Assembly: GCF_900110865.1 (NCBI RefSeq)
Contig: NZ_FOFD01000002.1
Coordinates: forward strand, 492,835-556,834
DNA: 64,000 nt
Source: Natrinema salaciae
GTDB taxonomy: Archaea > Halobacteriota > Halobacteria > Halobacteriales > Natrialbaceae
Direction: 5' to 3'
The position numbers and the translations under genes are program-made. Of this stretch, positions 37,610-41,530 are shown piece after piece. Positions within the stretch are counted from its first letter, which is position 1. The number at the start of each line of letters is the position of its first letter. The notes under the pieces are model-generated. The model was not told where the DNA came from, did not search any database, and saw nothing but the letters and a program-made list of their open reading frames with translations.

Positions 37610-38074
37610 CTACTCGGCCTCCGCTACCGCGACCACGACGTTCTGGACGTACCGCATGCTCGTCGCGATGGCCATGATCCCGTCCATCAGCGTCTGCTGG
37701 GTGGCTCCGTCGGGATAGACCCGGTACTCCACTTGCACCGTCTCGGCCTCGCGCAACTGGCACGAGGCGTCGTCCTCGTCGAGAAACGTGTAGAACCCCG
37801 GTGTCGCCGCCAGCATCGGCCCGACGTACTCGAGCAACTCGCCGCGTCGCCGGTCGTCGCGGAGCAGATTCCGGGCTCGCTCGGTGTCGAAGCCGCTACG
37901 ACCGACGATTCGAACCGGCCCGAACTCGTCTTCCTTGATGACGTGGACCGGCAGCTGTGAGAGTTCGACCTGGAAGTTGAACTCGGTGTCCTCGTCGGTG
38001 TGGGGAGTCACGTTCCTGATCGCCGTCTCGTCGAGCCAGTGGCGGACCTGGGTCTCGCTGATGTGTTTCGTCAT
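37610..38074 (-). CDS. secretion-chaperone-like protein (DUF2299/YbjN-type fold suspected)
   Basis: A protein of 154 residues. The pattern of alternating helices and long strands (TEFNFQVELSQLPVHVIKED, GPVRIVGRSGFDTER, ASCQLREAETVQVEYRVYPD, LMDGIMAIATSMRYVQNVVV) recalls the type III secretion chaperone-like/YbjN fold, which in archaea includes DUF2299. I assign this by overall form only. It has its own leaderless promoter (CTTATTCAGT, 38095-38104) and lies 118 bp downstream of the four-gene acidic cluster on the same strand. A chaperone or adaptor for those proteins would fit but is inference. Confidence 0.6.
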   Translation of the reverse strand: MTKHISETQVRHWLDETAIRNVTPHTDEDTEFNFQVELSQLPVHVIKEDEFGPVRIVGRSGFDTERARNLLRDDRRRGELLEYVGPMLAATPGFYTFLDEDDASCQLREAETVQVEYRVYPDGATQQTLMDGIMAIATSMRYVQNVVVAVAEAE

Positions 38075-38094
38075 ACACGAGCCGTCGGCGAGCG

Positions 38095-38104
38095 ACTGAA
38101 TAAG
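38095..38104 (-). promoter_or_regulatory. TATA element of the chaperone-like gene
   Basis: CTTATTCAGT on the minus strand, centred 26 bases upstream of the ATG at 38074; leaderless. Confidence 0.5.
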
Positions 38105-38192
38105 GCTTCAGCGGGCGATGGCCAGTTCGCGGTCGCCGCTCCGTTCGCCCTCGAGCTCCGCTCGGCTCGTGCTACCGCGCTCCTCCGGAACG

Positions 38193-39041
38193 CTATCCGT
38201 GCTTGTCGGGCATCGTCGAGTGGCGCACGGGCCCGCGCATGTCCGCCCGCTGGGACGGCGGTGGTGCCATCGTCGAGTGGCGACTCGGACCGCCCGGCGT
38301 GCCGCGGTTCCCCCCGTCGAGACCCGATCCGAGAAGGCCCCTGTCTCCGCCCTCGTCCTCGTCGGTCTCCGCCTCCGGCGTCTCGTCACCAGCCGAATCG
38401 TCCGCCGCACCGCTACCGGCGCTTCCGGCATGCGCCGACTCGAGTCGCGCTTTCAACTGGGAGATCTCGTCGCCGAACTCCCCGAACGAGTCGCGCATCG
38501 CCGATCGGAGTCGGTCCCCGACGTCGTCGGTCGGCTCCGACTCTGTCTCCCCGCGGTCGGCCGTCCCCGACTTGGCCGCCTCGTTCTCGGCGGCGTCCGC
38601 GTTGCCCTCGGCGGCCGCCGGTTCGCCGCCATCGTCGTCTCCGTCGGCCGCGCTCGCTGCAGTTTCGGTCGTGGACTCGGCCCGCTCGCCGATCGCCTCC
38701 CGGAGGTCGTCGACCGCCCCCTCGAGACTCGCCTCGTCCGTGCGATCGGCGAGCTTCGAGAGCCGGAGCAGTCGATGGAGGTCCTCGACGTTCTCCTGTT
38801 CGCCCCGAGCGATGGCCTCCGGGATCGACGCCGGTTCGGTCCCGTCCTCGAGCGTGTCCAACCCGACCGCCGCGAGCAACTCGTCGGAATCGGCCGACTC
38901 GAGGATACCGTTCGCCTCGGCCGCGGCCTCGACGAGGCCGGTCTCGCCGTCGGGGCCGTCCTCGGAGAGCATCGACACACTCGATTCGTCGGCTCGGTTC
39001 AGTACCTCGCGGACGCGATCCTGTAGTTGTGAGTCGGTCAT
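38193..39041 (-). CDS. acidic two-part protein of the unknown cluster
   Basis: A protein of 282 residues from the ATG at 39041. The N-terminal 110 residues form a helical domain (MTDSQLQDRVREVLNRADE; DSDELLAAVGLDTLEDG; EDLHRLLRLSKLADR). A low-complexity acidic Ala/Asp/Glu stretch follows (about 115-185), then a helix that may be coiled (DRLRSAMRDSFGEFGDEI) and a Gly/Pro tail with the motif RHSTM twice, close to the C-terminus (GPSRHSTMAPPP and GPVRHSTMPDK). The twin motif could be a docking peptide. No family recognised. Confidence 0.68.
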   Translation of the reverse strand: MTDSQLQDRVREVLNRADESSVSMLSEDGPDGETGLVEAAAEANGILESADSDELLAAVGLDTLEDGTEPASIPEAIARGEQENVEDLHRLLRLSKLADRTDEASLEGAVDDLREAIGERAESTTETAASAADGDDDGGEPAAAEGNADAAENEAAKSGTADRGETESEPTDDVGDRLRSAMRDSFGEFGDEISQLKARLESAHAGSAGSGAADDSAGDETPEAETDEDEGGDRGLLGSGLDGGNRGTPGGPSRHSTMAPPPSQRADMRGPVRHSTMPDKHG

Positions 39042-39114
39042 TGGTGGTTCACCGGTCGTACCGCGCCGTTCTCGTGCTGTTCGCCCCCGTCGAAACGGGA
39101 CCGCGATGCGGTCG

Positions 39115-40062
39115 TTACTCGGCTTCCGCCTCCGCTTCGGATTCCGAATCCGAATCGGAATCCCCATCGCCCCCTTCGTCCGTCACCGTCTCGATGATCT
39201 CCCCGGTCATCTCCTCCCGGCTGAGGTTCGCCTTCACGCCGACGTCCTTCGCCACCGACTGCAGGTCGCTGTAGGACATCACCCCGAGGAAGTCCTCGAG
39301 CGTGTCCTTCCTGAGATCCTCGAGTTCCTCCGTCGACGCCTCGTCCTCGCTCTCGCCGGACGGTTCGGCCGCTTCGGCTTCGCCGGTCGCTCCTTCGGCC
39401 GTCTCTTTGGCTTTGTCGGCAGCGTCTTCGGCCGTCTCTTTGGCTTTGCCGGCAGCGCCTTCAGCCGTCTCTTTGGCTTTGCCAGCAGCGCCTTCAGCTG
39501 TCTCTTTGGCTTTGCCAGCAGCGCCTTCAGCTGTCTCTTTGGCTTTGCCAGCAGCGTCTTCGGCCGCTTCTTTGGCGTCCGTTTCGTCGCTCTCGACGCC
39601 GTCGTCAACCTGTTCTTCCGCTTCACCCGCTGTCTCCTCCGCCTCGGATTCCGCTCGTTCCTCGCCTTCGTCGCCGCCAATCTCCTCTACAAGCCCCTCG
39701 ACGCTGGTCCCTTCGGTAACGCCTTTGGCCATCGACTCGAGCGAATCGCGGCCCTCGACTTCCGACATCGATTCCCGCAGAGCGTCCCGAATCGCCGTCG
39801 AGAGGTCGGCTCGAATCTCGCCGAGGTCGTTCCCGTCTTCGACGCCAGCGGCGATCGTCTCGTGGACCTCTCGGCCGATCGCCGCGCCGACTTCGCGCCC
39901 GAACCGTTCGCCGAACTGCCGACCGACTACGGCCCCGACCTCGCCACCGTCGATGTTGTCCTCGATACTCCCGCCACCGAGCATATCGGCGACGTCGAGC
40001 TGGTTGCTGACCTCGTTGGCCACCATTCCTTTCAGTCCGGACCCGTCACTCACGGCGACCAC
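39115..40062 (-). CDS. glycine-zipper, 11-mer-repeat protein with C-terminal SAP/Rho-N-like motif
   Basis: A protein of 315 residues. The N-terminal part has a glycine zipper with Gly every four residues (GAVVGRQFGERFGREVGAAI). The middle holds about six copies of an 11-residue repeat AAGKAKETAEG (residues about 168-235), close to LEA group 3 repeats that form amphipathic helices on drying or at membranes. The C-terminal part (LEDFLGVMSYSDLQSVAKDV ... EEMTGEIIETV) resembles a SAP/Rho-N helix-extension-helix that binds nucleic acid. The last residues are poly-Ser/Glu/Asp. The function is unknown; membrane- or DNA-associated stress protection is one guess. Confidence 0.7.
   Translation of the reverse strand: MVAVSDGSGLKGMVANEVSNQLDVADMLGGGSIEDNIDGGEVGAVVGRQFGERFGREVGAAIGREVHETIAAGVEDGNDLGEIRADLSTAIRDALRESMSEVEGRDSLESMAKGVTEGTSVEGLVEEIGGDEGEERAESEAEETAGEAEEQVDDGVESDETDAKEAAEDAAGKAKETAEGAAGKAKETAEGAAGKAKETAEGAAGKAKETAEDAADKAKETAEGATGEAEAAEPSGESEDEASTEELEDLRKDTLEDFLGVMSYSDLQSVAKDVGVKANLSREEMTGEIIETVTDEGGDGDSDSDSESEAEAEAE
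39401..39565 (-). repeat. five tandem 33-bp units encoding the 11-residue repeat
   Basis: Five head-to-tail 33-bp units start at 39401, 39434, 39467, 39500 and 39533, each opening with GTCTCTTTGGCTTTG on the plus strand. The units at 39467 and 39500 are identical, so the array expanded recently. Degenerate half-units flank it. Copy number is likely to vary between strains. Confidence 0.9.
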
Positions 40063-40106
40063 CTCGAGTCGGACCGCGGATAGGGAAAGTGTGCTGGATC
40101 ACGGTG

Positions 40107-40595
40107 TTATTCCTCGGCTTCGGTCGACTGCTCCGATTCTTCGGCCGCCGATTCCTCGCCCTCCGCGTCCGACTCGGAGTCGCTTTCCGCCTCGGTCCCG
40201 TCGTCGCCCTCGCTTTCGTCTTCTCCCGCGGCCTCCGTCCCTTCGTCCCCTTCTTCGGCGGTCTCTTCGTCCCCTTCTTCAGCGGGCTCTTCGTCAGTTT
40301 CGTCTTCTTCGGCGGTCTCTTCGTCCCCTTCTTCAGCGGGCTCCTCACTGTCTTCGGCGGGTTCTTCGTCGGGACTGAGCAGTTCGTTGACGACCATGTT
40401 CCCGATCGTCCGACCGAGCGATTCGCCGATCGCTCGCCCGAGAATCGCGCCGATCTGTCCGCCCAGCGCTTCGCCGAGCGGCTTGTCCCCGTCGATCTCG
40501 TCCTCCCACTGGGTTCCTTCGACCAGTTCGTCGACGTCGACGGTTTCGGTTATCTTCTCGGTATCGATCCGCTCGGTCAGTGAGTCGTCGCTCAT
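40107..40595 (-). CDS. glycine-zipper protein with acidic repeat tail
   Basis: A protein of 162 residues. A polar start (MSDDSLTERIDTEKITET) leads to a glycine zipper with Gly every four residues (LGGQIGAILGRAIGESLGRT), the same kind of helix as in the neighbouring gene. The C-terminal half is Glu/Asp/Ala repeats (EEPAEEGDEETAEE twice). It overlaps the upstream gene by ATGA. Glycine zippers pack helices tightly and are common in membrane-inserting or oligomerising proteins. Family unknown. Confidence 0.68.
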   Translation of the reverse strand: MSDDSLTERIDTEKITETVDVDELVEGTQWEDEIDGDKPLGEALGGQIGAILGRAIGESLGRTIGNMVVNELLSPDEEPAEDSEEPAEEGDEETAEEDETDEEPAEEGDEETAEEGDEGTEAAGEDESEGDDGTEAESDSESDAEGEESAAEESEQSTEAEE

Positions 40596-41530
40596 GATGA
40601 TGCCTCCGCCTGTGACGGCTCCGCCTGTTCGCCGGGCTCCTCCTCGCCCTTCGGCTCGAGCCGCTCGACTAGCTGTTCGATCACTTCTCTGACGATCATC
40701 GCCACGATCTCCTCGGTGGGGATGCTGGGAACGAGTCCGGACAACTTCTCCTTCAGCCAGCTGCCCGCTCTGGAGATGCGGCCGGGCGACTCGCGTTCCT
40801 CGCTCGGTTCCGCTTCGTCGGCCTCCTCGTCCGCTGGCCCCCCTTCGTCGGCGTCCGTCTCACCCTCCGCAGCACCGCCACCGAAGAGGCCGCTGAGCCA
40901 CTCTCCGGGCTTGCTCAGCAGGTTACTGAGCATCGCTTTGGGTTTGCCAAGCAGGGTGCCGAGCATCTCTTTTGGCTTACCCAGCAGCGACTTTACCGAG
41001 TCCAGCATGGCACCGGGACCGTCCAGCAACCCCGTGACTGCGGACAGCAAGTTCCCGAGCAATTTGTTCCCGCCGGGCCGCGCCGAGACGTCGAGCGTGA
41101 CCGGGTTCAGGTTCACTTCGAGGCCGAGCAGATCGAGGTACAGGCCGTCGAGATCGAGGTGGAGGACGCCGGACGCTTCGTCGTCCTGATAGACGTCTTC
41201 GGCGTCTTCGACGTGGTATTCGTCCTCGGCTTCGCTTTCGGCCGCTTCCTCGGGCTCTTCGTCCTCGGCTTCGCTTTCGGCCGTTTCTTCGGGCTCTTCG
41301 TCTGCCGCTTCGTCCTCGACTTCCGCCTCGTCCGCCGGTGCGGCGTCCTCGTCACCCTCGGGCGCGTCTTCGGCGTCGGACTCGTCCATCTCCGCTTGCC
41401 CGCCGTCGGTCATCACCCGGCGTGGCGGACCTGGCGTGCGCTCGGCGTCGTGTGAACGGCTCGAGGAGCGGTCGGCCCTCTCGGAGTCCGATCGCCCCTC
41501 GCGGCCGTCGCGTGGAAGATGCTCGGTCAT
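40592..41530 (-). CDS. protein with beta-motif LDLLGLEVNLN and GKPK repeat helix
   Basis: A protein of 312 residues from the ATG at 41530 (an internal ATG at 41413 is a possible alternative). The acidic N-terminal third has EPEE-SEAEDE repeats. A compact motif follows, LHLDLDGLYLDLLGLEVNLN ... VTLDVSARPG ... LLGNLLSAVTGLLDG, which I have seen in similar form in bacterial proteins of unknown function. Next come three 11-residue repeats (SLLGKPKEMLG, TLLGKPKAMLS, NLLSKPGEWLS) and a final helix (EIVAMIVREVIEQLVERLE). It probably heads the four-gene unit. No signal peptide is visible. Confidence 0.68.
   Translation of the reverse strand: MTEHLPRDGREGRSDSERADRSSSRSHDAERTPGPPRRVMTDGGQAEMDESDAEDAPEGDEDAAPADEAEVEDEAADEEPEETAESEAEDEEPEEAAESEAEDEYHVEDAEDVYQDDEASGVLHLDLDGLYLDLLGLEVNLNPVTLDVSARPGGNKLLGNLLSAVTGLLDGPGAMLDSVKSLLGKPKEMLGTLLGKPKAMLSNLLSKPGEWLSGLFGGGAAEGETDADEGGPADEEADEAEPSEERESPGRISRAGSWLKEKLSGLVPSIPTEEIVAMIVREVIEQLVERLEPKGEEEPGEQAEPSQAEASS

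Follow-up and report, generated by a model that had tools for sequence, protein, structure and literature searches.

A four-gene operon that probably forms a gas-vesicle accessory module in haloarchaea lacking GvpC

We analyzed a 64,000-nucleotide stretch of the Natrinema salaciae genome (RefSeq assembly GCF_900110865.1, contig NZ_FOFD01000002.1, positions 492,835 to 556,834 of the forward strand; hereafter the window), focusing on four adjacent genes, termed here G1 to G4, and their neighbor, G5. Judging from their distribution and genomic surroundings, G1-G4 almost certainly serve the gas-vesicle system in some role, and it is likely that they constitute an accessory module of GvpC-less haloarchaea, which would stabilize or shape the vesicle shell by the mechanism proposed below. 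The five genes are (positions are those of the window):

40592-41530, minus strand: G1, a gas-vesicle-associated protein outside all named families; its gene opens the conserved operon.
40107-40595, minus strand: G2, a glycine-zipper protein with an acidic tail.
39115-40062, minus strand: G3, with a GTG start; a glycine-zipper N-terminal half, a variable linker, a SAP/Rho-N-like C-terminal domain and an acidic tail.
38193-39041, minus strand: G4, a GvpI paralogue by profile match and tree.
37610-38074, minus strand: G5, a DUF2299-like protein; a facultative neighbor, perhaps an optional partner.

An earlier note on this DNA, made from its letters alone, had described four packed same-strand genes of no recognized family, one pair overlapping by 4 bp, and had proposed that they form a multi-part system. 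The open reading frames (ORFs) and the overlap (G1 and G2, 40592-40595) were indeed found, and none of G1-G5 reached the cut-off of any family in Pfam, NCBIfam or PHROGs. A contig search with G2 matched 22 named Natrialbaceae genomes, and the G1-G2-G3-G4 order was identical in all 22, while the flanking genes (a tungstate transporter and the cbiX region) were absent from some of them. A cobalamin or tungstate function, suggested by these neighbors, was rejected, as the neighbors differ in L017 and L021-L023; the notion that the proteins are phasins of polyhydroxyalkanoate (PHA) granules, a mere idea without support, was also discarded. Conservation covers the core of G1, the zipper half of both G2 and G3 and, in G3, also the C-terminal domain; G4 is conserved in its N-terminal half and at its very C-terminal end. 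The sequence of the acidic linkers is not conserved. The ratio of nonsynonymous to synonymous substitution rates (dN/dS) of the module cores is 0.1-0.4, and the genes are therefore maintained by selection.

We surveyed 194 genomes of the class (haloarchaea) by profile searches. Matches to G1 were obtained in 65 genomes, to G2 in 64 (including a marginal one, in G028), to the C-terminus of G3 in 67 and to G4 in 61 (some distant G4 matches being GvpI itself); these were nearly the same genomes, and the matches lay mostly at adjacent positions. Together with a genome in which G1 is broken (G193), the 65 genomes identified by G1 make 66 module carriers. GvpA-type genes (PF00741) are present in 79 of the 194 genomes, including all 66 carriers, and not one of the 115 gvp-less genomes has the module (Fisher p=4e-39; p=2e-11 at the genus level; neither value fully corrects for common descent). 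Losses among close relatives are consistent with this, as the three gvp-less Natrialbaceae genomes (G028, G092 and G046) are among those devoid of it. Moreover, G193 has a gvpN with an internal deletion, a G1 without its core and a frameshifted G4, joint lesions which indicate that a gvp part and a module part decay together. The neighborhood comparison across haloarchaea, a check named in the earlier note, thus found G1-G4 kept together, and the constant gene order along with the class-wide co-occurrence upholds the idea of a multi-part system.

Examination of gene positions further associated the module with gas-vesicle genes. Eight of 65 genomes, from five genera, have it 1.5-3.1 kb from gvp genes. 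A complete G1-G2-G3-G4 operon adjoins gvpO and the gvp cluster in L060 (10 bp apart) and L066, G1 and G2/G3-type genes are located beyond gvpO in L055, L059, L065 and L070, and G1 together with a zipper protein is found between gvpH and gvpI in L058 and L061 as well as in L091, a Halocatena plasmid; module homologues are carried in gvp clusters by Halocatena and Haladaptatus plasmids. The Pfam families around the L059 homologues are GvpO, GvpA, GvpF, GvpG, GvpH, GvpJ and GvpK; the remaining gvp neighbors were named after their counterparts on the annotated plasmid pNRC100 of H. salinarum. N. salaciae itself retains GvpA together with the accessory genes gvpF-M (L094).

The distribution of GvpC, an external protein that reinforces and shapes the shell (PMC9501494, PMC9372576), was the reverse. 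Strong multi-repeat matches to PF05465 (GvpC) were obtained in eight genomes, all of them gvp-positive and none with the module, such that among gvp-positive genomes GvpC is present in 0 of the 66 with the module and in 8 of the 13 without it (p=5e-8). Single weak matches were seen in G128 and G157, both module-less, and no PF05465 repeats were detected in G1-G4 or in any module genome. One genus (g21) includes one genome of each type, and GvpN accompanies both. GvpC and the module therefore occupy complementary sets of gvp-positive genomes. Halobacterium GvpC possibly shares a role with the module: it comprises alpha-helical repeats of variable copy number, comparable to the 11-mers of G1, and long acidic stretches. 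On the other hand, we found no sequence similarity between the two, the module consists of four proteins rather than one, and it lies outside the gvpACNO operon. That the module stands in for GvpC on the shell is a reading we hold tentatively, at somewhat less than even weight.

These searches also bear on a discrepancy in the literature. A 2015 review describes Natrinema pellirubrum, Natrialba magadii, Halopiger xanaduensis, Haladaptatus and Natronobacterium gregoryi as lacking gvpC and gvpDE and as vesicle-negative, for unknown reasons, and states that it is unknown whether the gvp genes of Natrinema, Natrialba, Halopiger and others are ever expressed (PMC4390858). The Natrialba magadii genome paper agrees with the gvpC-less state (PMC3403918), whereas Table 1 of a later review assigns gvpC to the same species (PMC9501494). 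Our PF05465 search supports the 2015 review over that table. As a separate observation, one genome of the genus Natrinema (G005) has two gvpN genes of differing type (C1:2333594 and C1:2910493), the first of which scores nearer to the gvpN genes of GvpC-type clusters; this genome may thus have acquired a second gvp cluster, in which no GvpC is recognized.

A direct link to a known gas-vesicle protein came from G4, which by profile match and phylogeny is a paralogue of GvpI. In hhalign, G4 matched the GvpI profile with a probability of 98.8% (E=7e-17, 209 columns, G4 32-280 to GvpI 52-275), while G1, G2 and G3, used as negative controls against the same profile, gave nothing. The two proteins further share a twin ST(M/V)P tail, which reads RHSTM...RHSTMP in G4 and AHSTMP...SHSTVP in H. 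salinarum GvpI (pNRC100):

38205-38282, minus strand: G4 twin motif RHSTMAPPPSQRADMRGPVRHSTMP, common to G4 and GvpI.

This motif occurs in 35 of 43 G4 and 20 of 24 GvpI proteins, as compared to 4 of 1127 other ORFs, two of which are module G4s missed in sorting. In the tree, the module G4 proteins (with N. thermotolerans and N. mahii as the neighbors of ours) are split from the GvpI-slot proteins, plus a few orphan copies, at 100/99. N. salaciae carries both G4 and a true GvpI, the latter in gvp cluster L094; as the gvpH-gvpJ slot is held there by this other GvpI, G4 is called a paralogue and not GvpI. G4 shares the N-terminal region with the long-form GvpI of Natrialbaceae, yet it lies outside the gvp cluster in this family, forms its own clade and, like its orthologues, is missing the C-terminal (R)xRIYGxRF segment of the GvpI-slot proteins. 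Of note, H. salinarum GvpI is recognized by no NCBIfam or Pfam model, which is why G4 went unnamed. The H. salinarum protein binds GvpH and GvpL, and its loss leads to extremely long vesicles (PMC7688916, PMC4390858). Orphan GvpI-like genes were also seen away from complete gvp clusters, at L084 (G118:C3:496490), L080 (G047:C1:2186837), L086 (G060:C2; matched by the Halalkalicoccus jeotgali plasmid, NC_014298:197899-198675) and G000:C4:271648; some of them fall within the GvpI clade of the tree.

We further characterized G2 and G3, which the earlier note had described as sharing a glycine-zipper helix. The helix was confirmed in both, and G2 was found to be homologous to the N-terminal, zipper half of G3 (hhalign probability 97%, E=1e-10), so that by profile comparison the two are paralogous glycine-zipper proteins. 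Their features are:

40377-40481, minus strand: G2 glycine-zipper helix, seven Gly at four-residue spacing (positions 41, 45, 49, 53, 57, 61 and 65), the Gly columns invariant in 16 orthologues.
39838-39948, minus strand: G3 glycine-zipper helix, predicted helix 39-75, predicted local distance difference test (pLDDT) score ~76-88.
39392-39576, minus strand: G3 LEA-like 11-mer repeats AAGKAKETAEG, 33-bp period, 5.6 copies.
39169-39333, minus strand: G3 SAP/Rho-N-like C-terminal domain, 83% mean column identity, three-helix model.

The Gly at every fourth helix residue recalls the glycine zippers of Pfam, although for G2 and G3 the matches to these families (PF13488, PF05433) scored 13.6 and 15.0 bits, below the gathering cut-offs of 25 and 24.2, and G2 and G3 differ from a plain membrane segment because charged residues sit between the zipper glycines. 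When 295 genomes of the phylum were searched with the G2 profile, matches were found in Halobacteria alone. The predicted structure of G3 has the zipper helix (39-75), one further helix and, at the C-terminus, a three-helix domain modeled with confidence. The latter aligned with several SAP and Rho N-terminus entries at Z 5.0-6.6, which is modest for a small helical domain, with a Foldseek E >0.001 and no Pfam match; Foldseek with the whole model gave nothing at E<=0.001, the consistent SAP/Rho rows coming from the C-terminal domain alone. In L055, L059 and L065, one and the same protein combines a G2-type N-terminus with the C-terminal domain of G3, a fusion which suggests that G2 and G3 cooperate. 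As for the LEA-like 11-mers reported in the earlier note, the 33-bp DNA repeats are real, yet they are private to this genome: five copies are present in N. salaciae, compared with 0-1 in 22 orthologues.

G1 is laid out as an acidic N-terminus, a conserved core, amphipathic 11-mer helices and a C-terminal amphipathic helix:

40961-41224, minus strand: conserved core HVEDAEDVY...GVLHLDLDGLFLDLLGLEVNLNPVTLDVSARPG...LLGNLLSAVTGLLDG, ~40 invariant columns in 16 orthologues.
40886-40990, minus strand: 11-residue LLxKPxExL helix repeats, a 33-bp tandem repeat of variable copy number.
40652-40792, minus strand: C-terminal amphipathic helix region ESPGRIS...VPSIPTEEIVAMIVREVIEQLVERLEP, conserved in 23 sequences.

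The core is the portion still recognizable in other families. The 11-residue LLGKPK repeats noted previously in one protein correspond to true 33-bp repeats in the DNA of G1 (40917-40987), varying from 0 to ~6 copies among orthologues. The exact start codon of G1 is uncertain, with a conserved TDGGQAE stretch starting at 41413. A tblastn search of plasmids with the G1 core gave no match, although the Halocatena homologue is present in that set; single-sequence searches therefore overlook distant members. When profiles of the cores of G1 and G4 and of the G3 C-terminal domain were searched against PDB sequences, only chance-level matches or designed helical proteins were returned, and the same held for G5.

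On the basis of these features, we propose the following mechanism. G4 would act as a GvpI-like adaptor, its twin ST(M/V)P peptides holding another Gvp protein, probably the Hsp20-like GvpH. G2 and G3 would pair via their glycine-zipper helices, displaying the acidic tails and the SAP-like head, and G1 would dock on the GvpA ribs or on this complex via its core and amphipathic 11-mer helices, which could lie on the ribs as GvpC helices do. The acidic tails may keep the assembly soluble in molar salt, and the four proteins jointly would stabilize or shape the GvpA shell, the job of GvpC in Halobacterium. A broader and more doubtful extension is that ~1/3 of haloarchaea have a second vesicle architecture, in which a four-protein coat (G1, G2/G3 and G4), usually encoded off the gvp cluster, takes the place of GvpC, and that species described as vesicle-negative would make such vesicles under other conditions.

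Several points weigh against the proposed account of the module. Five gvp-positive genomes have neither the module nor GvpC, a very divergent GvpC would evade PF05465, the correction for common descent is incomplete, and the exclusion may merely trace to two gvp-cluster lineages and not to a functional replacement. No linkage between module and gvp cluster is seen in Natrialbaceae, a number of module-type species are described as vesicle-negative (PMC4390858), a SAP-like domain is unexpected on a vesicle shell, and the AlphaFold model of G1 (pLDDT 49.5) is too poor for a fold search. The main rival to GvpC replacement is an assembly or regulatory set, in which G4 and G2/G3 control nucleation, length or expression and the SAP-like domain perhaps binds nucleic acid, GvpC being dispensable. 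This would fit the SAP/Rho-N-like domain of G3, the status of GvpI, the relative of G4, as a minor accessory protein affecting vesicle length (PMC4390858, PMC9501494), the absence of the regulators GvpD and GvpE from these genomes as well (PMC4390858), and the non-essential nature of GvpC in Halobacterium (PMC7688916). However, family-library scans of G1-G5 revealed no DNA-binding helix-turn-helix or other regulator domain, and the exclusion of GvpC exceeds what mere dispensability predicts; we thus regard this alternative as unlikely, if still a serious contender.

The vesicle-negative reports and the unlinked position in Natrialbaceae could also imply that the gvp genes and the module build structures unrelated to buoyancy, such as small nanostructures made of protein, or have fallen silent and are retained for some other purpose. 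Conditional expression could account for those reports equally well, though, and the retention of GvpA with gvpF-M in L094, along with purifying selection on the module, renders this improbable. Lastly, the earlier note had suggested a desiccation or salt-stress system, or an assembly at the membrane or nucleoid, a reading with no connection to gas vesicles. The LEA-like repeats, acidic stretches and SAP-like end visible in the window gave rise to this idea, which is contradicted by a distribution that follows the gvp genes without exception, by the homologues inside gvp clusters and by the kinship of G4 to GvpI, leaving it barely credible. Assignment to an LEA-type desiccation family was rejected outright, given that the 11-mer is not conserved among G3 orthologues.

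In the open-access papers searched, the module genes are nowhere mentioned as gas-vesicle genes, and existing annotations label the homologues within gvp clusters as hypothetical proteins. On our reading, the module would be a previously undescribed accessory gas-vesicle gene set. It resembles gvpV-Z, gvpP, Q, R, S, T, U and gvpD/E in being a lineage-specific addition to the gvp core; to our knowledge, they include no glycine-zipper plus SAP proteins. Those extra genes are described as bacterial or as regulators (PMC9501494). If G1-G4 are part of the gvp system, they would offer the gas-vesicle field its first alternative to GvpC and give a function to three protein families now annotated only as hypothetical. 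GvpC is the gas-vesicle part engineered for ultrasound imaging and antigen display. Furthermore, the expression puzzle of the gvpC-less, vesicle-negative haloarchaea would become testable by adding four genes.

The earlier note had counted G5 as a fifth part of the system, with a chaperone fold and a promoter of its own. The fold rests on a sub-threshold match to DUF2299 (20.4 bits against a cut-off of 22.8, E=5e-4, nearly the full domain), and the visible evidence for the promoter is a ~120-bp gap; a bacterial promoter scan, which did not cover archaeal promoters, found no site. G5 was recognized in nine of the 22 relatives, in two of those as fragments, and is broken in N. altunense and N. 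pallidum. Nevertheless, the 17 strong G5 matches among 145 genomes, which span eight genera, are all in module-bearing genomes (genus-level p=9e-4), with a weak extra match in G021, a genome without gvp genes; outside Natrinema and its close kin, the strong matches sit at other loci. G5 is thus not a core member and may at most be a facultative partner.

Additional gas-vesicle-related genes were observed in the course of this analysis. A second gvpA-like gene of N. salaciae is located on a different contig (L095, G000:C3:789898), with no gvp neighbors recognized. In three families, gvpO and the G1 homologue are separated by a gene for a protein of 111-117 aa with a zinc-ribbon-like motif, CPxCES...CLDCH (L059:8779-9117 and L070:5695-6030, also L055 and L065), and in L059 (9169-9627) GvpO itself bears an extra N-terminal DUF5763 Cys/His motif, with similar gvpO genes in L102, L103 and L100. 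Finally, divergent glycine-zipper proteins with a different short C-terminal domain (L092:7049-7855, L107:8045-8554 and L106:4240-5145) are encoded within or next to gvp clusters, among them those of Haladaptatus.

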